From positions 11,716,001 through 11,780,000 of the forward strand of contig BSQZ01000005.1 in the NCBI GenBank assembly GCA_033239005.1: a stretch of DNA of 64,000 nt. The letters run 5' to 3'. Source of the stretch: Lamellibrachia satsuma. Lineage: Eukaryota; Annelida; Polychaeta; Sabellida; Siboglinidae. How positions within the stretch are numbered: position 1 is the first letter of the stretch; every line of letters begins with the position of its first letter. The position numbers and the translations under genes are program-made. Below the pieces are notes generated by a model. It was not told the origin of the DNA. It searched no databases and saw nothing but the letters and a program-made list of their open reading frames with translations. This document shows, in pieces, positions 3,698 through 56,849 of the stretch.

Positions 3698-6560
3698 TGA
3701 GTATCTTATGATGAGCGGAATGCAGCTGACTGATCTTCCCAGCCAGGCCTTCAGTGATGTCACTGTGACTGAGACTTTCAGCCTCAACAATAATGCCATT
3801 AAGTCCATCGAGGTAGAAGCCTTCTTCTCGGTGAAAGCCAAGAACCTGTAAGTACATGATAAAAATATGTCGATTGCAGTTATCTGCAGTATCAGTTTTA
3901 TGACAATGCCAGAGTAAATGTTGTCACATATCTTTTATTTATGACACTATTAAATGAATAAAAAAGTTGATAGTTCTGGTACTGGGCACTGGGTTAAGAT
4001 CCAAGATTAGGAGAAAATGGATAAAGTCCCTATGTTCACAATGACCTGGTGTAGATGTAGCTGATTGTGTTTTATGTTTCGTAATTTTTCTATCATTTTG
4101 TTAACTGTTGTTTGTGTGACTGTAATTGATTCACCAACACGTATCATTGTATGTTTATTTTTCAGTGTATCAATCCATAATACCATTAGATGATTTGCAA
4201 GAAGATATGTCTTGTGTTTCAGCGACCTGCAAAATAACCATGTTGAGATGGTTAAAGGGAAGATGTTTGGTGGTTCATCGTCTGTCTCTGAGGCTCTGTA
4301 CCTTAACAATAACCAACTGACATGTCTGCCATCTGACATGCTTGACGGCGTGTCCATTGATCAAGTGATGTTGGATTACAACTTACTGGATGCCTACCCT
4401 AAGTTTAGTGTCCCGAACTTCATTAGTATGTGAGTGTTATCTGTTTCGTAATCAGCAAAGTCCATTTTTAGAGTATCTTCTTCATGCTTAATGAGCAAGC
4501 ATTAAGTAATTCAATAGTTTGTATGATGATTTCATAAAAACTTCATACAAAAGTTGCACAAATGAGCTAGCATGATGCTGTGGATACTAGGTGGGTTTGT
4601 TTTTTCACAAAATTAATGCGACATGGGACTAACAAAAAATCAAATTGAGGTTGCATCTTTAAGTTGGCAGGAAATTTAGTGACATTTTACCGTCAACTAA
4701 AAACCCGCCTGTTTAAACTTATCCTTCATAGCGCCTCAGCACATCGATCCAACTGTTTACGACTGGAATTGTTAAACCGACAAGAAATTGTCTAACCCTT
4801 TTGTTTTGGTGCGCTGTTTGGTTTTCCGAGGATTTTTTAACAATAGAAGTTTTTTGTTGTATTGTACGATTGCTTCCTGTTATTTCTGTTATTGCTTCCT
4901 GTCATTGCATCCGGTTATTCTGTTATTCCTGTTATTGCTTCCTGTTATTCTGGTGACTGTCATTGTGTGTTTCTGTGTTCAGCTCATTGACCCACAACCA
5001 GATTATGCACCTTCCTGTCGGCACATTCACGTCAGCCCAGGGTCTCACAAAACTTGACCTCACCTACAATCGCTTGACCACACTGCCTGCTGGACTACTC
5101 CAGCCATTGACCAGTCTCAAGATACTGTGAGTTTACATCAACTGATACTGACCACTCTCATGACAGTTATGTCTGTGCCCATTGCATGTAACCTAACCAA
5201 AGACCTCTTGTCCATTGACACTCAGCAGACATGTAAGTCTGTGTCCACTGACACTGACCGTCTCAAGACACTGGGTCTCTATACTGACCACTCCCATGAC
5301 AATAGTGCCAATGTCCATTGCCAACGCCCTAACCAAAACCCCCCATCCACTGATACTCCGCAGAAGTATAAATCAAGGTTGAGTGACTCAGACCATCTCA
5401 AGACACTGAGTCTGTACACTGATCACTAACATGACAGTAGAGCCATTGCCAATACCATATCTAAAGACCCCCATCCAGTGAAACTGAGCAGAAGTTGAAA
5501 CAAACGGCACAATCTTGTGACATGTCCATACCATCTTCATGTTGTGTGATGTTTCGACTGATTATCTTTCTGACTTCTTCATTGGTAACACGGTCTGTGT
5601 TACGAGATGTGCAAGATGTTTCGGTAACTTCTCGTCCCCAGTGTTTGTATGCCTATGTTAAATAAGAGCATTCAGCAAATATGGTACTATAAATTTATTA
5701 TTAAAATGAATTCCATTTACAAACTTCACCTAATGTACAGACATCCTTTTCTCACAGTCGTTGGAACAACAACCTGCTGACGTCTGTGGAACAAGGAGCA
5801 CTCGACAATCTGCTAAGTCTGGAGGAAGTCTACCTCCAGGGCAATAACCTCAAGTACTTCCCAACCCTGTCAAACGTTCCTGCTGTCACAACCATTGACC
5901 TCAGCAACAATGAGATCCGTTCGCTGGGCTATGATGCGTTCAGTGGCTCACCCTCGTGTGAAGTGTAAGTGTCCATATGTTTTTGTGTGAAGTGTAAGTG
6001 GCCACATATTTTTGTTATTAACATTACCCATACTGTGTCAACCAATAAGGGAAATTATTAGGAAAGTTTGTGTAGATTTCATACATGCAAAACCAGAAAA
6101 AATCAAGTAAGATAATTGAAATAGTTACAGATTATCTCTCGGGGATGTCACCAGCCACTACATGTGACAGATATCGCTACAAATAAAGTCTTACTAGCAC
6201 CACTCTAGTTCCAAATAATTCAACAGGTGGAGTAGTGGTAATTGGAACCATGGCAGACCCGAACCATAAATAAATCGAAAACCATGTAGAACCATGAAAA
6301 CAGTGACATCAGAATAATAGTGAAAATAATTTGTATTGATGTTATTCAAGGACTACAGTTCTTGCCTTCTCCCTCAATAAACAGGTTTTTGGGAGGGAAT
6401 CCGCTGGAGTGTGACTGCTACATGTACGATACCCTGAGTGCTGTTGACACCCAGACTGCACTGTGCGCGACACCGGCTGCAGCTACTAATGTTTCATTCG
6501 GGAATCCAGACGACCTGCCTACTTACTATCTCAATGTTAACAGGGACAAGTTTTTTTGCT
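3698..6560 (+). CDS. Exons 1-5: leucine-rich repeats and LRRCT cap
   Basis: Exons 3698-3847, 4223-4429, 4983-5126, 5758-5964 and 6385-6560 encode about residues 1-295 of the visible protein. Exons 1-4 give roughly nine LRRs with repeated LxxLxLxxNxL patterns, such as [28 protein letters not shown] and [12 protein letters not shown]. Junctions 1-4 are all phase 2, which is usual for LRR exon sets. Exon 5 opens with [15 protein letters not shown], the start of an LRRCT cysteine cap, and ends with a Cys pair. The first exon begins mid-repeat, so further LRRs or an LRRNT cap and signal peptide lie upstream. The domain is expected to bind protein ligands outside the cell. Confidence 0.88.
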
Positions 6561-9500
6561 GTAAGTGCTTATAATCGGGCAGATTTTGTTTATGAAGTTC
6601 TTACTGCTGCACTAAGAAATGTGGGTGGCATATTGTTGGTGTAAATTATGTGCACAAGATAAATGTATATTACAGTATAAATCGAACGCTGAGACCAGTC
6701 CCGCCAGGATGCAATGCCATGTATAAACAAATTACTTAATAACCTCAAACTTTGAGTTAATGAAGTTTTACTGTATATGTTGTTCACAAAGTTTGAAAAA
6801 AATATTAAAAAAAAACATTTTAAGACAAAGGCTTTTCGGTGTAATTTTTATGGGAACATAATACTATTAACATAATAACAATGTTTTGTACATTTACCCT
6901 TCTATGTTTTGTATATTTACCCTTCTATGTTTTGTACATTTACCCTTTTATGTTTTTAATTGTTGTCCCCAGTTTTCTTATATTTACATATTTTTTAAAC
7001 CCGCCACACAAGATTCAACTTTACCTGATTACTGCCACATTGTTCACATGTAAAAGTTGCATCTCGAAGTTGTCCAAATGCACCCGTATCATAAACATTA
7101 CATACTATACAATATTTGTTATTGCTATACTTGATATTTTCAAACTACCCGGTAGTTATTCAATTCATTTTCGATACCACCCCATCCAAACAGTGGCTTT
7201 TGTTTCCTGAACAGAACCATATGCTTGGATTATCACAACAACATTGGAAAGATCTTTTATTATTTTATTTTTTTTAAATTTGTCAATTCACTGCATTGGC
7301 AATCCGTGTACAGTGCCTGTAATTTTTCAATTTGTTTTTGGATAGGGTATGTGTGGGTGGGTTGGGCCAATACTATCCAAAAACTTTTTTTATTGGAATG
7401 TTTTTTGAGCCTCTTAATTAGAGTTAATTCTGTTGTTTCTCGTAGCTGCAGCCGGTGTTACTGCGAGTGCTCCTGGTAACTATCAACTGAAGGTGGACTG
7501 GGAGGCACCCACATTTCTCTACCCATCGAATGGCAGTGCTCAGTCATCCGGGCCCATCAGTCGAGACCCTGGTATGTCTGGACCCTGGTAAGTTTTGCAA
7601 GCAGTGGTGGATTTATACGACTTCTCATTAACTGTTCCCTTAAAGGTATCTCTGTGCACATATATAGATGTCTCAAACACACAACAAAGTGCCGATGACA
7701 TTTGGGAATAAAACAGCACATGAAAATCTGTGGATTGTCTTTTTCAATCTCATGACAACCATGTGGTTAGCTTTCACGATATGCCTCTCATCAGTTTTCA
7801 GCTGATCTCCCTCTGCTAATCTCCATGTGGTTCTAGATTTTAGTTCAGTCTTTGATATCTTGTAGTTACACATGTTTACTTGCCGTGACATTTAAATAGC
7901 ACTGATAGCACAGAATCACATGCATATAAACCGTTGCAATCCAGTTTTATAAGTGTCAGTAATAGCAGTAGTACTTTTTTGGGGTATTTTTATATAAATT
8001 AAGAATACGCTTCTGTCAGGACCTACACAGTGACCTGTCGTAATGACATAGCATCGACACTGATGACGATGGTGACAGATGAGTCAGGCGGAGTCAATGA
8101 GACGTCAATGACACACACATTCACAGAGACAGATGGTGTGGAGGCCGCGATGGAGTACAGGTGTGACGTCACCTTGAGTGTCAACAATCTCAATATGACA
8201 AGTGGCAGCAGTCCATCAGCGTTTGTGACAACTCTCACTCTAAATGGTAGGTCTGTATACAGGACCATTATGGTAGGTCTGTATACAGGACCATTATGGT
8301 AGGTCTAATGGTTAGAGCACTTGACTGTCGATCGAGAGGACGGTGGTTCAATTCCACCTGTCGCCATTTCAAAGCTTGGGCGATTTCCTTCATTCCAAAT
8401 TGCCTGTGTCTTTCAGAAGAGATGCTAACACGTTTTGGTCCCTTCTACCTGTGTCTATGCATAGGGAAGTAAGAGATCCCACACATGAGGAAGTAAGAGA
8501 TCCCACACATGGGGAAGTAAGAGATCCCATGCATGGAGAAGTAAGAGATCCCACGCAGGGAAATAGAAAAAACTGGTCGTGTAGTCACTTTATATTAAAC
8601 TCTAGTGAAAGAAAACTGAAAATAAACCTCCCCTATGATAGCCGTAGAGTAGGCTATTTGAAGTTAAATGTCACAAGTCACATGGCCAGGCAAACCACAT
8701 ACCCATGGAGGCATACAGCTTACAGTTGTGTTAGTTAAAAGTCACTGTTTAACAAGATTTACATCCAAAGCAACAAACTCGACAACAAGGTATTGATTTA
8801 CGTACTTAATTATTGGTTATGTATTATGGGATGCCGATACCAAATGAATGTAAAAGAATTCAGAACCGAACACTTCCGACTACTAATTTGCATATGGAGA
8901 ATGTTATGCTCACTACCCGAATACCTAATGAGGTGTAGAAACAACCAATGGCAGTTGAATAAGTTTAATACAGGTCACACCTTCATCTTCTTTGCTTCTT
9001 ACTACCCCTCTGTCTTGGGCTTGATGTCTCTTATATAGCTCCTAGACTCTTCTACAATGTGTGAGAGAGCCGCACTGTATGTCCCAGCCACATTATGTAA
9101 GACGTGTGGTGTTATGCCACAAATGTAATCGTTGCCTAAACATGTCAAAAACGGTGCCTGCATAAAACTGGAAACTATGAAAGATGAAGTGTTTGTTGCA
9201 CGTTGAATTTTGCAGTAAACATAGACATCCCTGTTGAAACGGGTGACTATCATCTCGATGTCAGCTACTACGACTTTGACAAGACACACAACGATTTCGC
9301 ATACGACGACGCTACCAGCTACAGTAATCCAATGTATGTGTCTAGTCCGTTTGGGGAGTGGCTGGCGATCTCTGATTCCCCGACCTGTGACTCCTTCTCT
9401 GATTGGTTCAGAAGTGTGCCAGTCTTTAATCACGTGGTCGAGAGCAAACTGGTGTTGGAGTACAACGCAGCAGAGCAAGTCAACAGGTAATAATAATAAT

Positions 9501-15001: not shown

Positions 15002-15054
<53 letters not shown>

Positions 15055-48000: not shown

Positions 48001-51000
48001 ATTATATGTTGGAATAAATCAAGAATATAGATATTGCTTATTTTCAGTCAACATGGGTCTTGCATGGATGTTTGATATCATTTACGTCACTGAATGAGCC
48101 GAGACAATACTGAAGTACATGAGTGATTTCAGGTGACCGGTGTGACAACGACATAGACGGAGATGGAGTTGACAATGACGTTGACAATTGTCCCTACCTC
48201 AGCAACCCTAACCAAGAGGACGCCAATGGTGCGTGAATTATGTTTTCTCCCCAGTTTCTTTCTTTTACTGTATCTAATAATGGTGTCTGTGAAAGGAGAC
48301 GCCTGTGAAGTAAAAGACCTAGATCGGCAACACTGGCAACTGTTTGGCAGCAATTTGATTTAAAATATCCAGTGAAATCAGGTTTACAATAGCACCTATG
48401 TTATATTCTGTTTGTTTGTCTTGCTGTGTATTCCTCTGCAGGTGTATTTTTATTTCTAGGTGAATTTGTTTTTCTTGTCATGTTAAAATTATGTAAAAAA
48501 AAAAATTTTTTATGCTTTCAATGGAAGGAGTTTGTTCATGGAAAATGTATGTAGTGATTCAGTTTATGGAAAACTTGCTCCACTTATCTTTGAAATAATT
48601 GTTCTCGTATCACTAAGAAAGTCAATGGCAAAATCTTAGCTGGAGCACCAAGACTGTCCCCCCTACTTGTAGTGAGACAGTGTTGTGAAAGTGCAATCAC
48701 ACACTAAGAAAAATACCTGTGTTTTCTGTGACAGGGAACAAGATCGGAGACGTTTGTGAGAGCGACACTGATGGCGATGGGGTGTTAGACAACAATGATC
48801 ACTCCCCCAGGAACCCCAGAATCCAGGGCACAGACTTGCGCCCCTACACAGTGGTGGACCTGTTACCTGTTGTGAATCAGTCTGACTGGCGTTTATCTCA
48901 CAGTGGGTCAGAGGTCAGACAGGTGGCTGATATAGACCGTCCTGTCATGCTCATAGGTGAGTGTATTGGTGTGTCTGATTGGTTGGGCTGTTGTGTGCCA
49001 ATATTTTTGATTGGTCAAAATGTTAGATATCAGTAAATGTATTTGATTAGTTGTTCCTTCTGATTGGTCAATGTATGATGTATCGGTCAGTATCATTGGT
49101 TGGATATTGACTTTCTGGACCAGAGCAGCCTCCCTCCTGGAAACAGAGGTGGAGACAAGAGTGGGGATCAACAGGCACCAGAAACAAGAACCTTGTCCTG
49201 GACCCTACAACCTTAGACCTTCCTCGATGCCAGTGGACCACCATCAACCTCATGAGGACTCTACATGTGTGATGCGGACTGATGCACAAATGGTGCATCA
49301 AAGCCACAGCAATTAAGATGCGAATGCAGCCACGACCAACAAACCATTGACCACATCAACCACTGCCGCATGTTCGCCTTCAGTGGAAGAATCTCCGAAG
49401 TCCTCTCAGCTTCACCTAAAGCACCTGAGGGAACAACAACCTGAAGATACAACTGAAGCTGAGGGAACAACAACCTGAAGATACAACTGAAGCTGAGGAA
49501 ACAACAACCTGAAGATACAACTGAAGCTGAGGAAACAACAACCTGAAGATACAACTGAAGCTGAGGAAACAACAACCTAAAGATACAACTGAAGCTGAGG
49601 TAACAACAACCTAAAGATACAACTGAAGCTGAGGAAACAACAACCTAAAGATACAACTGAAGCACTGCTCTATCCATACATAAGAAGAAGATTGGTTGGG
49701 TTGTTGGATCGTGTTGTTGGAATGTGTCAGGCCTTCTGGTGATAGTTCACTGGTGAACTTAAAACTTTGTCTTCCCAGGGCCAACTGCTTATGATGCTCT
49801 CAACTTCACTGGCACGTGGTTTGTGGAAAGTGACCAGGGCAGTGGCTACATTGGCTTTGTCTTTGGCTATCAGACCAACCGCAAGTTCTACGTTGTACTG
49901 TGGCGTCGCACCAACATCAACTACGGAGGATCGGCTTATCGAGCAGGCATCAAGGGCGTGCAGATCAAGGTAAGTGGGTCAGTGTTGGATGAATAACTAC
50001 TATTGTATTTATTAAAATTACTTTTTATCTAGACTACTTGATGATCTGTGGCTAGTACACCATACATCTACTGCTTGAATCAAGTTACTGGTATATGTTT
50101 CTCAACTCATCTGTACAATAGCTTTTACCAGTCAGAGTGGAAACTGAGATTGTTTCTTATAGTTGCTGAATTCTGTCACTGGTCCTGGAGATGATCTCGC
50201 CAAGGCATTGTGGCACAGCGCAGACTCGACCAATCAGGCCTCACTTCTGTGGCATGACCCGAGCATGCTGGGATGGCAGCACAGAACTGCCTACAGGTGG
50301 CACCTCAGTTGGCGTCCAACTCGTGGCCTCATCAGGTATGTTTGCTGTACGAATCTATCTGCCATAAGTTACACAGAGTCTTCGAAAAATCATTCTCATT
50401 GTGATGAAGTTCCTATAACATCACATTAAAGCTCACTCCTCAGTTGACTTCGCCCATTGCGTAACAAGTTTTATGGTGTAGAAGACAGTATCTTCAATTG
50501 TGGGGTCTTATGAGTTCCTTCCATCTCCTTCTGGTGACATAACAATTTTCTTCAGGAAATTTGTCAACTTTTTATAATCGCATCTCAAATATATTATTTA
50601 GAGTCAATAGTCGTGGGGCTGCAGACTGCTTGTTTTGGTATATCCATATCCATGAGTTTTATTGTTGGCACGATGTATTCTTTGCTGACAGGATAATTTG
50701 TTAAATATTTGTGAAATAGGATCGAGTACTCGTTGTCATGGATACACGATTGTTCATTGACAAAAGTGGTGTTATATTATGCACTAGAGGAGCCAGGGGT
50801 ATTGTGATTACTCTTGCGTTTTGCTTTGAAGGTTGCGAGTGTTTGATGTTAATCAAACCCTGATGGACTCAGGAGACCTCTATGATACAACCATCTCTGG
50901 GGGCCGCCTCGGAGTGTTTGTGTTCAACCAGACAAGGGTGACGTGGTCGAACCTTGTTGCTCGGAGCACTGGGCGTGAAAACGAGGCCTTGTCATTTGAT

Positions 51001-54000
51001 GGTTCAGAAGATTACGTGGAACTGGCGGATGTTAAAACACTACAAGTGAAACGCAGGTAAGTCTTCTCTATGGAGCGTCCAAATGTTGTCCTAATGTCTT
51101 TATATAAGCAAAAATCATGTACCCTCTGTTAAGACAAGAAGCCAAATCGATTTGAATATAACATGTTTGAAAGAGTTTACAAATTTAAACATCTATATAA
51201 ATGTCTATATACCAGATTTCAAAAAAATAAAATAAATCCAATTTAAATTTTAAAAATCTGATTTAAAAAAAATAAAAATCATGATTTTTTAACCCTGGTT
51301 TCCCCTGTGTTGACAGTTTCACTGTGGTAGTGTGGGTTCAATGGAGTGGTCTCTGTGTTGACAGTTTCACTGTGGGTGTGTGGGTTCAATGGAGTGTTCT
51401 CTGTGTTGACAGTTTCACTGTGGGTGTGTGAGTTCAGTGGAGTGTTCTCTGTGTTGACAGTTTCACTGTGGGTGTGTGAGTTCAGTGGAGTGTTCTCTGT
51501 GTTGACAGTTTCACTGTGGGCGTGTGGGTTCAGTTGAGTGGAGCGGGTCTCGCCGGCAAGCAGCCAATCATCTGCCTACTCTCCAGTCAGCTGTGTCTGT
51601 ATGTGAGCAATGGTCAACTCGGAGGTCAAGTGGGCCCACACTCAGTAGAGGGCACCACTGTGCTGAGCACCGACACATGGTACCACCTGGTGATGAGATA
51701 CGAAGCGGAAAGTATGTTGATTTTTAATCTCGGTCTTGTATGAACATGTATTAACTTGAAAAGTTTGAACAATTTAACCAGAAGTGTCTGAAGACAGTTT
51801 ACACATAATTTAATTAAAATGCAATTATACTTTATATTTAGTTTATATTTAGTCTGCTTAATAAAAAGTGAAAGGAATTCTTTATTGCTCTTAAATGTCA
51901 TTCACAGTTTTCTTTGTTATGTGATTTTTAGTGTAACTTGTTGATCTTTATATTTATCTTAATTTACTTGTTTTATATTCAACATAACTTATTTTATTCT
52001 ATGATGTTAAAATGTCATGCTTCTATTTTATTAACCTTTCATATGGTTCGTGATTATATTTACATGCCCATCTTAATTATTTTAAAGTAAAATATATATA
52101 ATACTATCTATAATATTACAAGTATTGTTTTACTGCAACGTGCTATTTTTTTATTTTATCCTGTAAAGTGCTGTGAACTGAACTGGATGTGGTGCTATAC
52201 AAAAAATATTATCACTATTATATATTTTTTATTTTTTTGTCCAGCACACACCCTCGACCTGTTTATAAACGGAGCCTCAAGTGGAGCCGTGGCGACAAAC
52301 ACGAGTGTTGCTCCGGTCATCTGGGTGAGTCTGGCTTCTCTGTGTTTATGAATTCACACCTCTTGAAAACTTGACATGTTTTTGGAAACTGGATATTCAC
52401 ATTTCTTCTCTGACATGCACAGCTTTAAGCTACTTATAATTTAGCCTAATAAAAAGTAACAAAAAATTTCAACTTCGCACCCTTCCATTGTTACCTGACA
52501 ACATTGGAATGAAGACCTTTAAATATAACACATTCTGGATTAAGAAAAGGCGCATGGTTGTAGCATTTTGCTGTTGTTGCTACAGTCGCGCCTCGTTATT
52601 ACGCGGATTCGGATATAATGCGGTTGGTCGTGGACCCCGATTTCCTGCCGCCAGGGGAAAATGCCAAATGGGCCTGCTTAAACCTACTTCGAATTGCTTT
52701 GACAATTCTCAAGAAACATTAGGCGAACAGTGTTAATGAATGAGTATCATCGTGTTGTTTGTTTTGCTCTGTCGCCGACATCAATCGCTGTCGCTGGCTT
52801 CGATTCGACAGTTTGTAAAAGTAGATCTATTCCATAACGGTATACGTAAGTGTGTTTTATTCAGTTCAAGAATCAACAGGGTGTGAGATTTTAAAATAAT
52901 ACACGTTGATGCTAGTTCTATAAACTGCATGTTGGCATATAAGACAGTGCTGCAAGCACACAGGGCTTCGACAGCGTTCATGGACTTGGTGCAGCAGGCG
53001 GCGATCGCTGTTGTTTAGTAGCTCCTTAGTGGTGGCACACAGTGGGAACACCTAACGCGCCTCGCGTATAGCGTGGTCCGAAGTCGTGGACCCCGACCAC
53101 CGTGTTATGACGAGGCTTGACTGTATATCCAAAATAATAATGATAATGATGACATCTTATGAAGCACAGATATCCACCAAGATAAGGAGGTCGTGACACT
53201 GCTACATTATCAGAGCTAGTTTTGGCAACAGCTCATTCAATGCACATCGCACATCAATGCACCTCCGAGCTCAGGTTACTGAGGATTTATGCTGAGCTCA
53301 GGTTACTGAGGATTTATGCTGAGCTCAGGTTACTGAGTATTTATGATGAGCTCAGGTTACTGAAGATTTCGGATGAGCTCAGGTTACTGAGGATTTAGGA
53401 TGAGCTTAGGTTACTGAGGATTTATGATGAGCTCAAGTTACTGAGGATTTATGATGAGCTCAGGTTACTGAGGATTTAGGATGAGCTTAGGTCAGTGAGG
53501 ATTTATGATGAGCTTAGGTTACTGAGGATTTAGGATGAGTTCAGGTTACTGAGGATTTATGATGAGCTCAGGTTACTGAGGATTTATGATGAGCTTAGGT
53601 TACTGAGGATTTGTGATGAGCTTAGGTTACTGAGGATTTGTGATGAGCTTAGGTTACTGAGGATTTGTGATGAGCTTAGGTTACTGAGGATTTGTGATGA
53701 GCTCAGGTTACTGAGGATTTAGGATGAGCTCAGATTACTGAGGATTTAGGATGAGCTCAGATTACTGAGGATTTAGGATCAGTAGAAATGTTATTGTTAT
53801 ATTTGTCTCGTGTTTGGTTTTTGTCTCACCTCTATCCAACAGTCGTGTGTTAACGCATCAAATACGTACACAAATTAAGATGTCAGATTGACTGATTTTT
53901 GTTTTCTGATCCCTTCGTTGTGTTTTATGGTAAATAGCAGTAAGCATTATTGCATATCCTGTATTGAAACAATAAATATGTTGACTGGATCAGTGATTGG

Positions 54001-56395
54001 ACCATCAGGGTCTTGTTTGAGAGGACCGGGGTTTGAAACCTCTTGGTGCCATTTCAAAATGTGGGAAATTTCGTTCACTCCACATTGTCCCAGTTCATTC
54101 AGCAGCAAATGAGTACCTGGCTGCAGGCAGCTCACTCAGCAGCGAATGAGCGCCTGGCTGCAGGCAGCTCACTCAGCAGCGAATGAGCGCCTGGCTGCAG
54201 GCAGCTCACTCAGCAGCGAATGAGCGCCTGGCTGCAGGCAGCTCACTCAGCAGCGAATGAGCGCCTGGCTGCAGGCAGCTCACTCAGCAGCGAATGAGCG
54301 CCTGGCTGCAGGCAGCTCACTCAGCAGCGAATGAGCGCCTGGCTGCAGGCAGCTCACTCACAGCGAAGCAGCGCCTGGCTGGCGCAGGCAGCTCACTCAG
54401 CAGCGAATGGCGCCTGGCTGCAGGCAGCTCACTCAGCAGCGAATGAGCGCCTGGCTGCAGGCAGCTCACTCAGCAGCGAATGAGCGCCTGGCTGCAGGCA
54501 GCTCACTCAGCAGCGAATGAGCGCCTGGCTGCAGGCAGCTCACTCAGCAGCGAATGAGCGCCTGGCTGCAGGCAGCTCACTCAGCAGCGAATGAGCGCCT
54601 GGCTGCAGGCAGCTCACTCAGCAGCGAATGAGCGCCTGGCTGCAGGCAGCTCACTCAGCAGCGAATGAGCGCCTGGCTGCAGGCAGCTCACTCAGCAGCG
54701 AATGAGCGCCTGGCTGCAGGCAGCTCACTCAGCAGCGAATGAGCGCCTGGCTGCAGGCAGCTCACTCAGCAGCGAATGAGCGCCTGGCTGCAGGCAGCTC
54801 ACTCAGCAGCGAATGAGCGCCTGGCTGCAGGCAGCTCACTCAGCAGCGAATGAGCGCCTGGCTGCAGGCAGCTCACTCAGCAGCGAATGAGCGCCTGGCT
54901 GTAGGCAGTTCACTCAGCAGCGAATGAGTGCCTGGCTGTAGATAGTGGGGTAGAGGTCAGTGAGTCTTCATGTAGTGATTGCGGCGTCGCTGAGAAGTTG
55001 AATTGGTGTTTGAAGGAACAGGTCTGCTGGGGGGTTTAAAACACTTTGAGCAGTCTCAAGGACTGGATATCGTGCTACATAATAACTTGCATAAATACCT
55101 TTATTGTTCTGCAAACAGTGAGGTGATGGATGATTATGAAGGTGTCCACCAGATGTGCCACAGGTCATTTTAGGCAGCTTCTATTGTGAATATCAGAAGT
55201 GTGGTTACATTTCAGGGCAACACAACATCTGATGACAACTCAACAGTTGATGACAACTCAACCACATTGTACCTGGGCCGAGATGAAAGCAACTTCTTCA
55301 GTGGGATAATGGACGAGGTAATACAGTTTGGTGGGAATTTAGTGAAATTTATACAATCAGATATATTTTATGGGAAATGTGCTTGGCTCTGTAAAAAGTT
55401 GCGCTATTTTATTGCGACACACATTTGTGTATGTATCAGGTGGGGAATAGCTGGGTAGCTAGCGAGTCGCACGTCTTGACATATTAATAGCTGGGTAGCT
55501 AGCGAGTCGCACGTCTTGACATATTAATAGCTGGGTAGCTAGCGAGTCGCACGTCTTGACATATTAATAGCTGGGTAGCTAGCGAGTCGCACGTCTTGAC
55601 ATATTAATAGCTGGGTAGCTAGCGAGTCGCACGTCTTGACATATTAATAGCTGGGTAGCTAGCGAGTCGCACGTCTTGACATATTAATAGCTGGGTAGCT
55701 AGCGAGTCGCACGTCTTGACATATTAATAGCTGGGTAGCTAGCGAGTCGCACGTCTTGACATATTAATAGCTGGGTAGCTAGCGAGTCGCACGTCTTGAC
55801 ATATTAATAGCTGGGTAGCTAGCGAGTCGCACGTCTTGACATATTAATAATTATTTATTTATATTGTATTCCTTTATCATACCAATAGGCTGCTGTATGT
55901 ACATACATAAATGGGGATATTTAAATAAATTAATTTTAAATCTCGTTAAAAATCAATGACACTGAAATGAGTCTCCATGGAAATGCACAGTTGTGTGTGT
56001 TTGAATAGCCTATTGCCGTGCAAAGAAGTAGGATATTGTAAAATGCAGTTTTCAAAAGGCACAGTACAACTACAGTTTAGGACCTATAACCATCATTTTA
56101 TTTCCTTCAGGTGCGGATCTACCGTGTTGCCCTGCTGGACGCTGATGTTGACCGGCACATGGAGATGGGTGGACTTAGATGGCCGGTCCACCAGAAGTAT
56201 GCGACTGCTCACTACAGCATGGACAACTACGATCGTAGCGGTCAGTTGACCGATACTGGACTGCTGAGACTGGACGGCCTGATACACGGACAGCCACAGT
56301 TTGTCAAGGTCAGCTATGTACAACTATTTTTGTTGTGTGGCTATAACGGGGTTTTGTATAATTAAAATGCCCCAATTCTCTGACTGTATTTGTTC

Positions 56396-56448: not shown

Positions 56449-56849
56449 TAACAATATTATACTTTTTTAATCTTTATTACTGCAGTATACTTGTTCTCAG
56501 TAATTGTATATGACAAGAATTTTACAGATTAGTAAATCATCCGATGAAAAACATTATATTTTATGTTTCAAAGGTAAAGATTTAGTAGTCTGCCTTTTAT
56601 TTATCGCTGTACGTGTCGTAAAACTGGCATGTTTTATATCATTGCCAAACAAACAAAGGTGTATCGAGCAATGATTCACATTGAACTATTTTATCATAAA
56701 ACTGTTTATTAAATGTTCTGTATAAAAGATAATTAGAAATATATGTCTCTACAGTTGTGTTTGTTTTTAACGCAAACAAATGAACATTCTTTTTTCAGAG
56801 TACACATGACTTTGCCAGATTCACAAAGACTTATCCAACGAACAAGTAG
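3698..56849 (+). CDS. Giant multidomain thrombospondin-superfamily matrix protein (38 exons, 5'-partial)
   Basis: I inferred this gene by joining exons: 3698-3847, 4223-4429, 4983-5126, 5758-5964, 6385-6560, 7446-7587, 8020-8246, 9216-9486, 11695-11873, 12298-12395, 12821-13055, 15618-15725, 30242-30432, 31035-31204, 34831-35087, 35715-35828, 36520-36728, 37210-37366, 38201-38352, 39109-39271, 39898-40220, 40866-41114, 42052-42198, 43793-43897, 44721-44828, 45776-45935, 47134-47317, 47721-47806, 48133-48228, 48735-48956, 49779-49969, 50163-50335, 50832-51056, 51509-51711, 52245-52324, 55216-55317, 56111-56308, 56799-56849. All introns are GT..AG and every phase fits. The visible total is about 2,150 residues ending in TAG. 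Domain order is LRR, LRRCT, FN3-like, fibro-slime, cadherin, F5/8C, GCC2/GCC3-like, EGF, TSP3, TSP-C, LamG. There is no membrane helix, so it is probably secreted. The EGF-TSP3-TSPC block is the thrombospondin hallmark; the rest is not canonical. The start codon and signal peptide are outside the window. Confidence 0.88.
5104..5505 (+). repeat. About 140-bp tandem repeat (3 copies) starting at the exon 3 donor
   Basis: The end of exon 3 with its donor (CAGTCTCAAGATACTGTGAG) is followed by two diverged copies containing CGTCTCAAGACACTGGGTCT and CATCTCAAGACACTGAGTCT. Each carries similar downstream text (CTGACCACTCYCATGACA, then CTAACCAAA and GCAGAAGT-like stretches). The later copies have lost a good donor. 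Confidence 0.65.
6561..7445. other. Intron 5, no feature seen
   Basis: AT-rich sequence. 6880-6960 has a short repeat of TTTTGTACATTTACCCTTCT. Nothing else supportable. Confidence 0.6.
7446..8246 (+). CDS. Exons 6-7: fibronectin-III-like module
   Basis: Exons 7446-7587 and 8020-8246, about residues 295-418. Visible pattern: [12 protein letters not shown] (B-strand Trp followed by a Pro), [10 protein letters not shown] (C strand) and [15 protein letters not shown] (F strand Tyr) with a final VTTLTLN. Spacing and hydrophobic pattern fit an FN3 domain, but the match is by eye and the loop between strands is long. Potential N-glycosylation sites occur (NGS, NET, NMT). It could also be another Ig-like beta-sandwich. 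The exon 7 donor (GGTAGGT) lies in a 26-bp tandem duplication. Confidence 0.6.
8221..8312 (+). repeat. 26-bp tandem duplication covering the exon 7 donor
   Basis: ATGGTAGGTCTGTATACAGG plus ACCATT occurs twice and a third copy starts (ATGGTAGGTCTAATGG). Each copy restates the splice donor G|GTAGGT. Use of the second donor would insert 26 nt and break the frame. Confidence 0.75.
8300..8575 (+). mobile_element. tRNA-derived SINE, family A, copy 1
   Basis: A-box-like TGGTTAGAGCACTTG is followed by a B-box in GGTGGTTCAATTCCACC, then a body with GGTCCCTTCTACCTGTGTCT shared with copies near 9600-9770 and 10015-10185. Inside it a 24-bp segment (GAAGTAAGAGATCCCACACA) is repeated four times at 8465-8560. 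Confidence 0.75.
8576..9215. other. Rest of intron 7, no feature seen
   Basis: No coding pattern or clear repeat was recognised in this stretch. Confidence 0.5.
9216..13055 (+). CDS. Exons 8-11: fibro-slime / PA14-like domain
   Basis: Exons 9216-9486, 11695-11873, 12298-12395 and 12821-13055 cover about residues 418-679. Landmarks follow the fibro-slime family: [17 protein letters not shown] near the start, [11 protein letters not shown], then [20 protein letters not shown] in the position of the FTFTGDDDVW motif, and finally [20 protein letters not shown], which matches the family ending in which F-x-AER is followed by S-x-x-x-x-x-T. The domain is a relative of PA14 beta-barrels, thought to bind carbohydrate or mediate adhesion. 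The family's usual run of three Asp is changed here (GGGDE), so metal or glycan binding may differ. The end of exon 11 ([20 protein letters not shown]) leads into the cadherin-like part. A Penelope-like element sits in the following intron. Confidence 0.75.
9490..9600. repeat. Dispersed repeat fragment with AATAATAAT start
   Basis: TAATAATAATAATAAAATCA is followed by TCTTATATAGCGCCGGTATC and TTATCAGAGCTAGTTTT. A related text occurs at 53136-53260 (TTATCAGAGCTAGTTTTGGC), so this is an interspersed repeat, perhaps a SINE 3' end in reverse orientation. Confidence 0.5.
9600..9775 (-). mobile_element. SINE family A, copy 2 (partial, minus strand)
   Basis: Read on the minus strand it contains GGTCCCTTCTTCCTGGTGTC followed by CCAGGGGAAGTAAAAGATCC, matching the bodies of the + strand copies at 8300 and 10015. 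No clear A/B box remains. Confidence 0.6.
10015..10185 (+). mobile_element. SINE family A, copy 3
   Basis: B-box-like GGGTTCGAGTCCACC at 10032 is followed by the shared body GTTGGTCCCTTCTACCTGGT and GGGGAAGTAACAGATC. The A-box half is eroded. Confidence 0.65.
10224..10281. repeat. (AT)n microsatellite
   Basis: About 57 bp of uninterrupted TA dinucleotide in intron 8. Confidence 0.98.
10494..10635. repeat. 16-bp minisatellite
   Basis: Unit TTGGTGTAGTGCCTCG in about eight copies with few changes, in intron 8. On the minus strand it gives spurious open frames of the [10 protein letters not shown] type. Confidence 0.95.
10935..11515. repeat. 34-bp minisatellite (about 17 copies)
   Basis: Purine-rich unit GTAAGAAAGATGGGAGAACT plus GTRTAAAGAGGGAT. 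Two alternating forms (GAACTGTAT / GGACTGTGT) suggest a dimeric higher-order pattern in part of the array. It gives a spurious 237-codon minus-strand open frame. Confidence 0.95.
11863..12210 (+). repeat. 31-bp minisatellite starting at the exon 9 donor
   Basis: From the exon 9 donor (CCAG|GTATGTTTACCTGTGA) onward the text CAGGTGTGTTTACATGTGAC plus AGTCCCTAAGT repeats about ten times. Most copies keep an AG|GTGTGT donor-like site. The first downstream donor-like site (CCAG|GTAAAT) is 27 nt away and in frame. Confidence 0.85.
12396..12820. other. Intron 10
   Basis: AT-rich. 12484-12545 holds a short 10-bp repeat of CTGTATCTCA. No other feature seen. Confidence 0.6.
12821..35087 (+). CDS. Exons 11-15: cadherin repeats
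   Basis: Coding exons 12821-13055 (end), 15618-15725, 30242-30432, 31035-31204 and 34831-35087, about residues 630-921. Exon 13 has [20 protein letters not shown], the LDYE...Y.L.V.V.D strand pattern of cadherins. Exon 14 has [14 protein letters not shown], the calcium-binding DxNDNxP linker, then [11 protein letters not shown], the DxDxGxN motif. Exon 15 has [20 protein letters not shown], the DRGxPxx end of a repeat. This supports one complete and one shorter EC repeat, with weaker cadherin-like text in exons 11-12. Calcium-dependent rigidity or adhesion is expected. The 14.5-kb intron 12 between exons 12 and 13 holds the 77-bp satellite. The last third of exon 15 has no match I recognise and leads into the discoidin domain. 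Confidence 0.85.
13075..14740 (-). mobile_element. Penelope-like element with RT and GIY-YIG, flanked by inverted repeats
   Basis: Minus-strand frames in order: RT start at 14425-14634 ([18 protein letters not shown]), RT core at 13805-14428 ([28 protein letters not shown]), connector at 13604-13801, and GIY-YIG endonuclease at 13222-13518 ([20 protein letters not shown]). This order is diagnostic of Penelope-like elements. Frame changes between segments and a stop show it is decayed, although the RT catalytic YVDD is kept. About 81 bp at 13075-13155 and 14659-14740 are near-perfect inverted copies (ACCTCTCAAGAAACTTAGTG at the outer end). The RT is 5'-truncated. It lies antisense in intron 11 of the large gene. 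Confidence 0.9.
15003..15050. repeat. (AT)n microsatellite
   Basis: About 48 bp of TA dinucleotides in intron 11. Confidence 0.98.
15239..15537. repeat. 32-bp minisatellite (about 9 copies)
   Basis: Unit GAAACTATTTAAGAGTAGGG plus CATGTGCTACAT, nearly identical copies with an A/G difference (CTACAT/CTGCAT), upstream of exon 12. Confidence 0.97.
16060..16205. repeat. Left copy of a diverged direct repeat in intron 12
   Basis: Shares ordered blocks with 30030-30190: GGGCTGTATGACC / GGGTTATATGACC, GCTGTTATTT / GCTGTTATTT, GATTTCTTTGTGAGGTTGTG / GATTTCTTTGTAGGGTTGTA, TAGTGCAAGCAGTTGAAT / CAGTGCAAACAAGTTTAAT. The right copy sits just before exon 13. Confidence 0.65.
16230..16395 (+). mobile_element. 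hAT-like transposon end (left)
   Basis: CAGTGGTGACTGAATTACTT is followed by runs of AAGTAAAAGTA, CTACTTGAGTCAAAGTAAAA and AAGTACTTGAGTAAAA. This A/T text, built on AAGTA and ACTTGAGTA, is typical of hAT terminal regions. No transposase is visible nearby. A matching end in opposite orientation is at 29865-30008. Confidence 0.55.
16967..27440 (+). mobile_element. CR1/L2-type non-LTR retrotransposon 3' end, interrupted by an internal satellite
   Basis: Just before the array, 17060-17115 reads [18 protein letters not shown] in one frame, the conserved Y-K-x-L-N-G-L-A-P region near the C-terminus of CR1/L2-like reverse transcriptases. After the array, 26852-27076 gives the normal continuation: HSYNTRNAS, then [19 protein letters not shown] and a stop. 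27077-27435 is a 3' UTR ending in TCAGTCAATCAATCA, a short 3' tail repeat typical of these elements. The 5' part is truncated or decayed. So one 3'-terminal retrotransposon fragment brackets about 9.8 kb of satellite derived from its own ORF. Confidence 0.85.
17090..26924. repeat. 77-bp satellite array (about 128 copies) from a retrotransposon ORF
   Basis: Unit: ATGTATGAATGGTCTAGCAC, CACAACATGATGTGTGTGAT, ATGTCTACATCAAGTAGTCA, TTCCTATAATACCAGAA, 77 bp in total. Each copy encodes [20 protein letters not shown] and YNTRN, but since 77 is not a multiple of 3 the frame moves at every copy. Variants: GGCACC/AGCACC, AAGTAG/AAATAG, ACCATAAATG at 20390-20560, CTCCATC at 22910-23060, and 79-bp copies with an extra GT at 24822-25080. 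From about 23460 to 26770 nearly all copies are the AGCACC/AAGTAG type. 25141-25240 holds two to three damaged copies. Confidence 0.97.
27590..28760. repeat. About 42-bp minisatellite split by a DNA transposon
   Basis: Unit TTCACTGCCACTGTTCATTT plus CTAATACTACTAGTTATTACAG recurs at 27625-27740 and again at 28707-28760, on both sides of the CAGTC-ended transposon at 27741-28705. Confidence 0.8.
27741..28705. mobile_element. CAGTC-ended TA-flanked DNA transposon, copy A (965 bp)
   Basis: Left end CAGTTGCGCCTAGTTATTAC; right end, read inward on the minus strand, CAGTCGAGCCACGTTATAGC. TA is present on both sides. Inside the ends are GGTCGTGGACCCC and its near-inverse AAGTCGTGGACCCC. Ends and TA target resemble pogo/Tigger-type Tc1/mariner elements. 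No transposase frame was found, so it is non-autonomous. It is the longest of three copies; the others (42638-43223, 52583-53123) look like internal-deletion forms. Confidence 0.85.
28775..28965 (-). pseudogene. Unidentified coding remnant, minus strand
   Basis: One minus-strand frame stays open for about 60 codons with protein-like composition: [20 protein letters not shown], then [19 protein letters not shown] and [16 protein letters not shown]. It has no start codon or obvious splice sites. I do not recognise the family; a transposon ORF fragment is likely since all neighbours are mobile elements. Confidence 0.35.
28966..29864. other. Intron 12 right part, no gene seen
   Basis: 28990-29080 has a short degenerate repeat of GTGACCAAATGT. 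The rest shows nothing I can support. Confidence 0.5.
29865..30008 (-). mobile_element. hAT-like transposon end (right)
   Basis: Read on the minus strand: CATGTAACGAAGTAAAAGTA, then CTTTGTTACAATACTTGAGT and CTTTTACTTGTACTGAAGTA. These are the same kind of AAGTA/ACTTGAGTA-rich terminal sequences as at 16230-16395 but inverted. It may be the partner of that end or an independent MITE. Confidence 0.55.
30030..30190. repeat. Right copy of the diverged direct repeat in intron 12
   Basis: Shares ordered blocks with 16060-16205. It lies directly upstream of exon 13. Confidence 0.65.
30433..31034. other. Intron 13, no feature seen
   Basis: No coding pattern or repeat recognised. Confidence 0.6.
31285..33365 (-). 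mobile_element. Mutator-like transposase element remnant, minus strand
   Basis: First exon-like block at about 32810-32981 starts [20 protein letters not shown] and ends at a donor (GTAAGTTT). A second block at about 31958-32385 starts after an acceptor with [20 protein letters not shown], shifts frame, and then reads [20 protein letters not shown] and [19 protein letters not shown]. The latter resembles a transposase-like domain I know from invertebrate genomes under a Mutator-like label. The frame change and lack of the catalytic part show decay. AATGTCCTATTA at 31282 and AATGTCCCATTA at 33353 could be a diverged target duplication. It lies antisense in intron 14. Confidence 0.5.
32520..32556. 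repeat. (AC)n/(GC)n microsatellite
   Basis: ACACACACACACGCGCGCGC followed by GCGTGT, a short alternating purine-pyrimidine tract able to form Z-DNA. Confidence 0.9.
33366..34500. other. Rest of intron 14, no feature seen
   Basis: No open frame, RNA or repeat that I can name. Confidence 0.5.
34504..34632. repeat. 31-bp minisatellite (about 4 copies)
   Basis: Unit ACTGAGGGTGGTCACTGTCA plus GGGTGCATGTC, four copies with small changes. Confidence 0.9.
34655..34735 (+). mobile_element. SINE family B fragment
   Basis: TTGCCTCAGTTCACTCAGCA followed by GAGTGCCTGGC matches the family-B body seen at 44490, 46800 and 54060. Confidence 0.55.
35088..35714. other. Intron 15, no feature seen
   Basis: No repeat or coding pattern recognised. 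Confidence 0.55.
35715..37366 (+). CDS. Exons 16-18: discoidin (F5/8 type C) domain
   Basis: Exons 35715-35828, 36520-36728 and 37210-37366, about residues 921-1081. Exon 16 starts with the first cysteine and has [19 protein letters not shown], matching the ASS and ARLN landmarks of the family. Exon 17 has [20 protein letters not shown] (WLQVDL core) and [12 protein letters not shown]. Exon 18 has [39 protein letters not shown] and a closing GC. The two terminal cysteines are in the expected places and length is full, about 155 residues. Such domains bind phospholipid, collagen or glycans on cell surfaces. A Penelope-type coding scrap lies in the intron between exons 17 and 18. Confidence 0.93.
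35829..36519. other. Intron 16, no feature seen
   Basis: No coding or repeat feature recognised. Confidence 0.55.
36890..37065 (+). mobile_element. Penelope-like element C-terminal scrap
   Basis: The + strand frame reads [20 protein letters not shown] just before a stop, parallel to [18 protein letters not shown] at the end of the GIY-YIG domain of the element at 13075-14740. It also contains TTACCTCTCAAGAAAC, the outer end of that element's terminal repeat. Confidence 0.65.
37367..38200. other. Intron 18
   Basis: 37375-37480 carries a dispersed-repeat-like text (AATTTATATAGCACTGTATT, GGCGCTTTACA). The rest is AT-rich with no other feature seen. Confidence 0.5.
38201..40220 (+). CDS. Exons 19-21: cysteine-rich GCC2/GCC3-like repeats
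   Basis: Exons 38201-38352, 39109-39271 and 39898-40220, about residues 1081-1293. Cysteine spacing repeats as C-x2-C-P-x-G-x-x: [59 protein letters not shown] and [20 protein letters not shown]. This is the ephrin-receptor-like / GCC2-GCC3 pattern found in several matrix and receptor proteins. The end of exon 21 changes into an EGF module ([10 protein letters not shown], then [20 protein letters not shown]). It probably acts as a spacer stiffened by disulfides before the EGF-TSP3 region. Confidence 0.8.
38629..38760 (+). mobile_element. Possible tRNA-derived SINE fragment
   Basis: GGGCACGTGGCTCAGTCGGT resembles a tRNA A-box region; the B-box is weak (TTTCCGATCC). Low support. Confidence 0.3.
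38797..39090. repeat. 22-bp degenerate minisatellite upstream of exon 20
   Basis: Unit TTGAATTGGTGTTTGTTCAG plus TG in about 12 variable copies, ending within 20 bp of the exon 20 acceptor. Confidence 0.9.
39340..39657 (-). mobile_element. tRNA-derived SINE, family C, minus strand
   Basis: On the minus strand the head reads GGGGGCGCGGTAGCTCAGTC followed by GTGGGGCGCTGG (A-box TAGCTCAGTCGTGG), then TGTGTTTGAGTCCCCCAACT (B-box). The body continues into TGTCTTTAAAAAAATATAAT. The tRNA fold is imperfect and fused to an unrelated tail, so this is a SINE and not a tRNA gene. Confidence 0.75.
39898..43897 (+). CDS. Exons 21-24: thrombospondin-type EGF modules
   Basis: Exons 39898-40220 (end), 40866-41114, 42052-42198 and 43793-43897, about residues 1245-1460. 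Four EGF-like modules can be read, with calcium-binding EGF starts TDVDECQDY and [13 protein letters not shown]. Other landmarks are [12 protein letters not shown] and [20 protein letters not shown]. The last is the thrombospondin transition in which the final EGF runs into C-G-x-D-x-D-L-D-G-x-P before the type-3 repeats. The module with an insert between PPGYSG and GDIDEC resembles thrombospondin EGF2. Three of the four exons are phase 0 at both ends. Confidence 0.92.
40221..40865. other. Intron 21, no feature seen
   Basis: No repeat or coding pattern recognised. Confidence 0.55.
41115..42051. other. Intron 22, no feature seen
   Basis: Only a short (ATC)n at 41757-41776 was noted. Confidence 0.55.
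42253..42335. repeat. 21-bp minisatellite (4 copies) in intron 23
   Basis: Unit GAACAAATCTCCTGCTCYRG plus A, four near-identical copies. Confidence 0.9.
42638..43223. mobile_element. CAGTC-ended TA-flanked DNA transposon, copy B (586 bp)
   Basis: Left end CAGTCGCGCCCCTTTATTAC with TA before it; the right end (TTATAAAATTTACTG) is followed by TA. Internal blocks match copy A (GGGGAAATGCCAAATGGGCC; AATTGCAATCAAGATTCACA). The 3' end is the most diverged of the three copies. Confidence 0.8.
43224..43792. other. Rest of intron 23, no feature seen
   Basis: AT-rich with no repeat or coding pattern. Confidence 0.55.
43793..48956 (+). CDS. Exons 24-30: seven thrombospondin type-3 calcium-binding repeats
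   Basis: Exons 43793-43897, 44721-44828, 45776-45935, 47134-47317, 47721-47806, 48133-48228 and 48735-48956, about residues 1426-1746. Seven DNC motifs (DNCPDV, DNCQFT, DNCPNV, DNCPLL, DNCPGV, DNCVDL, DNCPYL) match the canonical number. Calcium ligands repeat as DxDxDGxGDxCD, for example [19 protein letters not shown]. These repeats wrap many calcium ions in thrombospondins and COMP. A short insert, IIGGTNKDK, sits in the fifth repeat. In the last repeat the usual DVCPEN-like cysteine is replaced by DHSPRN. No RGD is present. Confidence 0.96.
43883..44028 (+). repeat. 34-bp minisatellite copying the exon 24 donor (4 copies)
   Basis: The exon end and donor GGTTGTGCCTGG|GTAGGTGA with ACTATGACTTACTT repeats four times. 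Decoy donors are out of frame, and the first intronic copy holds an in-frame TGA. Confidence 0.85.
44490..44712 (+). mobile_element. SINE family B copy, intron 24
   Basis: Body: GTTGCCTCAGTTTATTCAGC, ATGCGTACCTGGCTATGGAG, GAACAGGTCTGCCAGGGGGT, ATATGGTGCTATATAAGG and TACCTTTACCT. The same ordered blocks occur at 46795-46985 and 53990-55110. The tRNA head is not clear. Confidence 0.75.
44829..45560. other. Intron 25 left part, no feature seen
   Basis: AT-rich, no feature recognised. Confidence 0.55.
45577..45745. repeat. About 29-bp minisatellite upstream of exon 26
   Basis: Unit AGCTGTAGAGTGTTGGCAAC plus TCCCTACAC, about six copies, ending about 30 bp before the exon 26 acceptor. Confidence 0.9.
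46053..46697. repeat. 32-bp minisatellite (about 20 copies)
   Basis: Unit ATCAGGTTGATGAGGGAAAG plus AACCTGGGCTGA, in intron 26. Variants GGGCTGA/GGCCTGA occur in blocks. Confidence 0.97.
46795..46985 (+). mobile_element. SINE family B copy, intron 26
   Basis: TTCATTCCACGTTGCTCCAG, GAGCACCCGGCTACAGG, GAAGAGGTCTGCCAGGGAGA and TTACATTTACCTTTATC match the family. Confidence 0.7.
48229..48734. other. Intron 29, no feature seen
   Basis: No repeat or coding feature recognised. Confidence 0.55.
48735..51056 (+). CDS. Exons 30-33: thrombospondin C-terminal domain
   Basis: Exons 48735-48956 (end), 49779-49969, 50163-50335 and 50832-51056, about residues 1710-1915. It follows the type-3 repeats directly, as in all thrombospondins. 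Landmarks: [91 protein letters not shown]. These match the conserved GFIFGYQ, FYVVMWK, NSKTGPG, LWHTGDT, SYRWFLQHRP and GRLGVFCFSQ positions of the family. The domain is an L-lectin-like beta-sandwich that packs on the calcium wire. The family's closing RYRCND-type cysteine is replaced by ARSTG here. Confidence 0.96.
49125..49405 (+). mobile_element. Non-LTR retrotransposon C-terminal scrap
   Basis: One frame reads [20 protein letters not shown]. The C-x-C-x(5)-Q-T-I-D-H-I-x(2)-C pattern is typical of the region after the RT domain in many Jockey/CR1-type elements. Flanking text is frame-broken. A 34-bp minisatellite starts 20-40 bp downstream. Confidence 0.65.
49426..49665. repeat. 34-bp minisatellite (about 7 copies), intron 30
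   Basis: Unit CTGAGGAAACAACAACCTGA plus AGATACAACTGAAG, close to the retrotransposon scrap. Confidence 0.95.
50336..50831. other. Intron 32, no feature seen
   Basis: No repeat or coding feature recognised. Confidence 0.55.
50832..56308 (+). CDS. Exons 33-37: laminin-G / concanavalin-like domain after TSP-C
   Basis: Exons 50832-51056 (end), 51509-51711, 52245-52324, 55216-55317 and 56111-56308, about residues 1917-2136. Landmarks: [79 protein letters not shown] and [12 protein letters not shown]. This is the LamG_3 / pentraxin-like lectin pattern (F-D-G-x-x-D-Y-V, F-S-x-W-V, W-x-H-x-x-x, L-G-x-x, F-x-G-x-I-D-E-V-R-I-Y). It begins in the same exon as the end of TSP-C. Exon 36 adds a loop with three N-glycosylation sites (NTT, NST, NST). 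Known thrombospondins end at TSP-C, so this is an extension. Confidence 0.88.
51312..51515 (+). repeat. 48-bp minisatellite copying the exon 34 acceptor (5 copies)
   Basis: CTGTGTTGACAG|TTTCACTGTG with GGTGTGTGGGTTCAATGGAG and TGTTCT is repeated with acceptors at 51316, 51364, 51412, 51460 and 51508. Only the last joins exon 33 with an open frame; copies three and four turn the Trp codon into TGA (GTGTGAGTTC). Confidence 0.9.
51712..52244. other. Intron 34, no feature seen
   Basis: AT-rich, no feature recognised. Confidence 0.55.
52583..53123. mobile_element. CAGTC-ended TA-flanked DNA transposon, copy C (541 bp)
   Basis: Left end CAGTCGCGCCTCGTTATTAC; right end inward CAGTCAAGCCTCGTCATAAC; TA on both sides. 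The inverted ends continue into GGTCGTGGACCCCGA and its inverse. Best preserved of the three copies. No transposase frame. Confidence 0.9.
53268..53780. repeat. 27-bp minisatellite (about 19 copies)
   Basis: Unit GGATTTATGATGAGCTCAGG plus TTACTGA. Variant sites are TTTATG/TTTAGG/TTTGTG and CTCAGG/CTTAGG. A block of identical TTTGTG copies lies at 53610-53700. Confidence 0.97.
53990..55110 (+). mobile_element. SINE family B copy inflated by an internal minisatellite
   Basis: Head with a B-box-like GGGGTTTGAAACC at 54028, then TTCGTTCACTCCACATTGTC and CCAGTTCATTCAGCAGCAAA. After the tandem array it resumes with the normal family body: GTGATTGCGGCGTCGCTGAG, GGAACAGGTCTGCTGGGGGG and TACCTTTATTG. 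So the 37-bp array lies exactly within one SINE. Confidence 0.8.
54088..54945. repeat. 37-bp minisatellite (about 23 copies) inside a SINE
   Basis: Unit CAGCTCACTCAGCAGCGAAT plus GAGCGCCTGGCTGCAGG. Copies are almost identical except a damaged stretch at 54355-54415. First and last copies are closest to the single-copy SINE text (AAATGAGTACCTGGCTGCAG). Confidence 0.95.
55447..55849. repeat. 40-bp perfect tandem array (10 copies), intron 36
   Basis: Unit CTGGGTAGCTAGCGAGTCGC plus ACGTCTTGACATATTAATAG, ten copies without a single difference that I can see. Confidence 0.98.
56111..56849 (+). CDS. Exons 37-38: C-terminal tail and stop
   Basis: Exon 37 (56111-56308) finishes the LamG domain ([17 protein letters not shown]) and encodes a polar segment with [16 protein letters not shown] and [13 protein letters not shown]. 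Exon 38 (56799-56849) adds [16 protein letters not shown] and the TAG stop. There is no transmembrane helix and no GPI-like hydrophobic end, which supports secretion. The phase-0 junction and a good acceptor (TTTTTTCAG) support the join. Confidence 0.8.
56399..56445. repeat. (AT)n microsatellite in intron 37
   Basis: About 46 bp of TA dinucleotides. Confidence 0.98.

Follow-up and report, generated by a model that had tools for sequence, protein, structure and literature searches.

The analysed stretch of DNA (the window, 64,000 nucleotides in length) carries the predicted 3′ three quarters of a mega-thrombospondin (mega-TSP) gene of a lophotrochozoan-like invertebrate, which is known here from genomic DNA and from the proteins of its relatives. 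The gene part comprises 39 exons on the plus strand, between positions 3698 and 56849, and these join in phase into one reading frame of 6,541 nt of exonic sequence, or 2,179 residues (phase 2 at the start). AG precedes all 39 exons and GT follows all 38 internal exon ends. The joined frame contains no internal stop codon and closes with TAG at 56847-56849. An initial annotation of the window had proposed 38 in-phase exons; the single frame from 3698 to 56849 is confirmed, with the exon count now 39. The order of domains in the frame is LRR/LRRCT, FN3, fibro-slime, cadherin, F5/8C, Cys-rich, EGF, TSP3, TSP-C and LamG (Table 1).

Table 1. Domains and last exon of the predicted mega-TSP frame, with the exons that encode them (positions in the window).
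Feature	Positions	Strand	Evidence
LRR array, C-terminal part, with LRR cap	3698-3847, 4223-4429, 4983-5126, 5758-5964, 6385-6560	+	LRR_8 4.9e-27
FN3 module	7446-7587, 8020-8246	+	relatives' copies, profile and fold
Fibro-slime / PA14-fold domain	9216-9486, 10720-10800, 11695-11873, 12298-12395, 12821-13055	+	TIGR02148 5.2e-11
Cadherin region	15618-15725, 30242-30432, 31035-31204, 34831-35087	+	PF00028 4.6e-7; DxNDN motif LDENDNCP
F5/8C (discoidin) domain	35715-35828, 36520-36728, 37210-37366	+	PF00754 (F5_F8_type_C) 1.4e-23
Cys-rich growth-factor-receptor / ephrin-receptor-like region	38201-38352, 39109-39271, first part of 39898-40220	+	PF07699 Ephrin_rec_like 1.6e-7
EGF domains	39898-40220 (last part), 40866-41114, 42052-42198, 43793-43897	+	EGF_3 4.2e-17, EGF_CA 2.4e-11; TSP-2 EGF aligned
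Thrombospondin type 3 repeats	44721-44828, 45776-45935, 47134-47317, 47721-47806, 48133-48228, start of 48735-48956	+	TSP_3 9.6e-48, 7 stretches; TSP-2 alignment
TSP-C (L-type lectin-like)	48735-48956 (rest), 49779-49969, 50163-50335, 50832-51056 (start)	+	PF05735 (TSP_C) 2.7e-71
Second ConA/LamG-like domain	50832-51056 (end), 51509-51711, 52245-52324, 55216-55317, 56111-56308	+	Laminin_G_3 1.3e-14, residues 1950-2110
Last exon	56799-56849	+	16 residues then TAG; in phase; tail resembles relatives P0001, P0002, P0014 (by eye)

The exon chain was built from the list of open reading frames by way of a hand-picked coding seed, a codon table and dynamic programming with generic splice-site weights. 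It was then pruned by judgement, and corrected by tblastn of relatives and by reading doubtful joins by eye; the last exon and several exon ends were placed by eye with the use of relatives. The unpruned gene finder over-predicts, giving 42, 48 and 45 exons according to the setting, and it continues beyond the stop codon. Its chain kept to the gene between 3698 and 56308, adding 6 to 10 surplus exons. Exons starting at 13127, 14291, 28599, 31356, 32252, 49147, 51317, 54905, 58600 and 59559 were dropped by judgement before the relatives were compared, and those at 28299 and 37986, also predicted by the finder, were left out of the final model; the dropped exons proved unneeded in later alignments with relatives. 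For the exon that begins at 15618, ends at 15706 and 15731 were discarded, the second of which leads to a stop codon, and 15725, at a GTATGT donor, was adopted. The exon 10720-10800 was picked up by the finder at its mildest setting only. Several splice sites are weak (e.g. a donor score of -0.3 at 10800 and at 37366) and are supported by homology. The finder score is 630.5 on the plus strand, 89.0 on the minus strand and 13.2-35.8 on five dinucleotide-preserving shuffles. This contrast is partly circular, as these exons also supplied the training data for the codon table; thus homology is the independent evidence and carries more weight.

The LRR-LRRCT and F5/8C domains, the complete EGF-TSP3-TSP-C cassette and a LamG-like domain after TSP-C, all named in the initial annotation, were recovered in the Pfam scan, with the LRRs and their cap occupying about 290 residues inside the window. 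TSP-2 structures align to the cassette at 1.9e-151 (2rhp_A) and 9.9e-151; the alignment opens at the last EGF, closes with TSP-C and crosses the introns in between. Where TSP-2 has a DDD immediately ahead of FVFGYQ, the window reads GSG, and at GRGDIC it reads KIGDVC; we take the DDD so aligned for the published DDD motif. The window's own FN3-like and fibro-slime segments gave no Pfam match. The FN3-like module that had been proposed is upheld by way of its relatives: PF00041 recognises 11 of 15 of their copies at E<=1, the strongest at 3.9e-6, a profile of these copies matches structure chains of RPTP-delta (5.6e-6) and DCC (2e-5), and the predicted fold of the Owenia copy (pLDDT 86) matches a DCC FN3 domain at 9.3e-6. 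Cadherin repeats had been claimed in the plural. The cadherin region is colinear with residues 1501-1705 of Owenia P0001, and one copy in it is clear (a single Pfam stretch, as against two in the draft model); the next is visible mainly through alignment with relatives. A Cys-rich region is found where GCC2/GCC3-like repeats had been described, but its Pfam label is Ephrin_rec_like.

A search with the TSP-C region yielded 74 relatives of fitting length, and querying with the fibro-slime region brought in P0075-P0077; a further search, with the fibro-slime region of P0069, returned 2 proteins, P0069 itself included, and added P0078. Twenty-five of 77 relatives align to the frame in a single BLASTP match that runs from before residue 300 to beyond residue 2000. 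These full-span relatives are from an annelid, molluscs, echinoderms and hemichordates, with P0050 in addition. Homologs that span the whole frame thus exist in four animal groups, and the refuting condition set in the initial annotation, homologs that are always separate genes, is not borne out. The highest-scoring are Owenia P0075 (43.5% identity), scallop P0040 (43.5%) and Solemya P0076 (42.5%), and the P0075 alignment covers window residues 3-2178. Both Owenia fusiformis proteins, P0075 (2,900 aa) and P0001 (2,952 aa; 42.9% identity), are colinear with the whole frame, fibro-slime domain included; nothing in the window corresponds to their first 721 and 746 residues, respectively.

The long introns, such as the 14.5 kb at 15726-30241, would be compatible with at least two adjacent genes, one with LRR, fibro-slime and cadherin parts and the other a thrombospondin of its own, in phase by chance and joined in the reading. 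Canonical TSPs occur alone, and some proteins span the later part only, e.g. P0005 (1,207 aa; window residues 1112-2179). Against this stand the 25 single matches, and among them P0050 has a 2,909-residue frame on a 9,859-base contig. A contig of this size is too short for introns this large, and from these lengths P0050 is read as a cDNA, which argues for one mRNA. Most exon junctions are likewise continuous in relatives. Of the 38, those with no gap in the six columns to either side number 31 in P0075, 32 in P0001, 27 in P0040, 28 in P0002 and 26 in P0050, and those with five or more gap characters number 0, 1, 2, 2 and 1, respectively. In addition, cDNA sequencing of the Nematostella mega-TSP, which is not among the 25 full-span relatives, gave a single frame of 2,804 aa (text of PMC6526912). 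A join of neighbouring genes is accordingly very improbable, and the single gene of mega-TSP kind proposed in the initial annotation is retained. Full-length cnidarian proteins also exist (up to 2,812 aa), but their single match is confined to roughly the final thousand residues, starting at 1097 or 1112 in the longest, which suggests that their middle part is more diverged.

The exon at 3698 opens inside the LRRs; therefore the gene does not start there. In the full-span relatives, the BLASTP match begins at residues 722-754 in 19 of 25 and at 109-693 in the other 6. About 720-750 further N-terminal residues, including most of the LRRs and the signal peptide, are expected upstream of the window, and the protein would total about 2,900 residues if this upstream part resembles the N-termini of most relatives. 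Window positions 1-3697, compared with the first 760 residues of six relatives, gave nothing below E 1 (best 1.1). The start of the window, ahead of the first visible exon, is a tandem array with 53 copies of a 41-bp unit (2-2183). With the N-terminal part outside the window, and with many repeats and retroelement pieces in the introns, a decayed mega-TSP copy might be considered. However, the 39 exons are open, in phase and all bounded by GT/AG, and the C-terminal tail is retained, so that a pseudogene has very little probability.

By definition, a mega-TSP starts with a signal peptide and LRRs over about 1,000 aa, continues with a cadherin-bearing central region and a TSP C-terminal region, and closes with a second ConA/MAM-like domain; the proteins are typically over 2,700 aa and have no DDD motif, and the bilaterian members typically have FN3 and discoidin domains as well, together with a Cys-rich domain of growth factor receptor type (text of PMC6526912). 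Lack of a coiled coil counts as a further mark of the family. Every tested feature of this set that lies inside the window is found: cadherin, the EGF-TSP3-TSP-C cassette, the second ConA/MAM-like domain, discoidin and the growth factor receptor Cys-rich domain are present, the DDD of TSP-2 reads GSG, and the bilaterian FN3 is seen by profile and fold of the relatives, without a match for the window's own copy. The published mega-TSPs Lingula LaMT, Crassostrea CgMT and Ptychodera PflMT, among others, have the same domain set, no DDD and the same place in the tree, whereas the window holds only the last 2,179 residues of such a protein (PMC6526912, text). Their range as described extends from ctenophores to basal chordates, but not to ecdysozoans or vertebrates (PMC6526912, text).

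A tree was calculated from the last EGF-TSP3-TSP-C part, with 34 rows; 39 of the 74 relatives had been chosen, of which 6 were lost to a length filter, and the midpoint root serves for drawing only. The window falls within a 25-row set of mega-TSP type (98/90), apart from 9 rows that consist of 6 canonical TSPs, 2 sushi-TSPs and the crustacean Palaemon P0044. It lies near Owenia and bivalves (86/92, then 85/90). The gene is almost certainly a member of the mega-TSP family, judged from its predicted protein, and this identity together with a general role in matrix adhesion is highly probable.

Canonical TSP-1, TSP-2 and COMP have the EGF-TSP3-TSP-C cassette in common with the window, as the alignment to solved structures shows. 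They are without LRR, cadherin, discoidin and second ConA-like domains and carry DDD in TSP-C, and the window is the reverse; this description of canonical TSPs comes partly from the text of PMC6526912. The close TSP-2 alignment is the one point in favour of a canonical thrombospondin or sushi-TSP with extra domains, a reading of virtually no probability, since the window protein continues past TSP-C and has LRR, cadherin and discoidin domains, a Pfam scan of the window part found neither TSP1 repeats nor VWC, nor any sushi domain (a sushi-TSP has at least three), all 25 full-span relatives are of mega-TSP type, and the tree, with its midpoint root for drawing only, parts the window from the canonical and sushi rows (98/90).

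As to copy number, two mega-TSP-type proteins are found in Owenia (P0001, P0075), where one is seen in the window, and three in Patiria (P0007, P0013, P0029), of which P0007 and P0013 are on contigs equal in size. One mega-TSP per species, with two in some, has been described (PMC6526912, text).

The domain order was considered possibly new in the initial annotation. This is rejected, as the architecture has been published for bilaterian mega-TSPs (text of PMC6526912), and the fibro-slime domain is widespread in the family. The window thus adds one more mega-thrombospondin with its gene structure, and the protein type is already described from many invertebrates. The sole fresh point appears to be a modest one, the fibro-slime (PA14-type adhesin) domain in the middle of the protein, which is predicted to be widely common to the family.

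The fibro-slime domain named in the initial annotation (residues 418-706 of the frame) is supported by TIGR02148 and by relatives; the window's own copy scores 42.9 bits, just below the curated cut-off of 45 bits. All 17 sampled relatives match TIGR02148 with E<=0.01, the best with 5.2e-17, and the fibro-slime domain is hit in all 41 of the 74 relatives that have LRR plus TSP_C; of the 49 proteins with a fibro-slime hit, some have a partial match. When the fibro-slime region was the query, 5 proteins were returned, all with TSP_C and LRR. Its wide presence across the mega-TSP family is close to shown by these matches. The predicted fold of the Owenia copy is a PA14-like beta sandwich, and the Foldseek matches of the fold model are a mixture of legume, ERGIC-53/VIP36 and PA14 lectins. 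The Pfam PA14 model was matched at E<=1 by 4 of the 17 members, with 7.8e-5 as the best value, and the two sponge-like copies gave 0.12 and 0.075. A sequence comparison of the fibro-slime profile with the PDB gave 7 weak, unrelated matches (best 0.16), and that of one sponge-like copy gave 2 matches (best 0.21).

In the window, an acidic loop of the domain has the sequence GGDE. Among 38 rows, the window and 37 relatives, it reads GGEE in 20, GGDD in 8, GGDE in 6, GGEA in 2, GADE in 1 and GGDA in 1. Calcium-dependent PA14 lectins have two consecutive Asp residues (D-cis-D) at the calcium site, as described in parts of PMC6218569 and PMC6650083. The GGDE loop may correspond to this site. The PA14/Flo adhesins Cea1A and Flo5 have the PA14-like fold in common with the window domain, but the window's loop reads GGDE and lacks the Asp-Asp pair of calcium-binding PA14 lectins. 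Fibro-slime proteins (TIGR02148) have the same domain profile in a different context. The sponge-like mega-TSPs P0069 and P0078, from metagenomes, have Ig domains, and their loops, GSDDIW and GNDDIW followed by DLGGTH, are unlike those of the 38 compared rows.

Outside this family, PA14-type adhesin modules are familiar from the attachment of bacteria to cellulose and from the flocculation of yeast. The covered part of PMC4668043 refers to models in which fibro-slime proteins of Fibrobacter bind cellulose. The text of PMC6526912, apart from figures and supplements, names PA14 once, for Hydra, and does not name fibro-slime, and the covered text of a 2025 Nematostella matrisome study, PMC12549020, cites that 2019 work and has neither 'mega-TSP' nor 'PA14'. 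A literature search, with most subscription papers and supplements outside its scope, found no paper that joins 'fibro-slime' and 'thrombospondin', and the titles of papers with 'fibro-slime' concern microbes. Perhaps the fibro-slime domain is an ancestral and defining part of the mega-TSP core from sponge-like to bilaterian members; the oldest form of the TSP superfamily would then have had a PA14-type adhesin module between the LRR and cadherin parts, with the acidic loop altered in most animal lines, where binding may consequently be calcium-free or lost. The chances for and against this history are about equal. A shared fibro-slime/PA14 domain gives mega-TSPs a putative glycan-binding module that can be tested and a link to microbial adhesins, which may help specialists, and such a module would bear on how early animal matrices bound sugars.

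The mega-TSP would be secreted, its signal peptide lying upstream of the window, and may span the extracellular matrix as a calcium-loaded bridge of many domains. Its LRRs, at the N-terminus, could bind protein partners, a speculation also found in the text of PMC6526912. The middle, made up of FN3, the PA14-fold fibro-slime domain, the cadherin-like region and discoidin, may contact glycan, collagen or membrane, and the EGF-TSP3-TSP-C cassette followed by the second ConA-like domain would be a calcium-loaded cell- and matrix-binding head. As the protein lacks the DDD motif found in the TSP-C of canonical TSPs, its retention in matrix is expected to differ from theirs. In its details, this long calcium-stiffened bridge is a proposal to which we give even weight for and against. 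The combination of adhesion with lipid, collagen and glycan binding in one molecule, put forward in the initial annotation, is likewise a hypothesis. For a Hydra family member, siRNA blocks regeneration of the head, but not of the foot (PMC6526912, text).

The introns and the 3′ flank contain several repeats and fragments of mobile elements. The 14.5-kb intron is mostly taken up by a 9.8-kb satellite (17090-26927, plus strand) with a 77-bp unit in 104.8 + 22.1 copies. Its final copy enters an open frame at 26840-27073 that includes HSYNTRN; this frame, which is without a Pfam match, reads like what we assume to be the end of a non-LTR retrotransposon protein. Since the last copy runs into this frame, the satellite may stem from a retrotransposon fragment. 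On the minus strand of intron 13056-15617, the segment 13225-14670 matches RVT_1 at 1.4e-6, below its cut-off, and GIY-YIG weakly at 0.0019, and is probably a Penelope-like element. Downstream of the gene, Gly/Pro/Arg-rich open pieces on the minus strand at 58464-59731, of which two were tried against Pfam with no match, may represent exons of an adjacent, oppositely oriented gene. At 62567-64000 on the plus strand, a weak zinc knuckle (0.091) and a reverse transcriptase (3.8e-8) are found in a segment that continues past the end of the window, and their order is presumably that of a Ty3-like retrotransposon.
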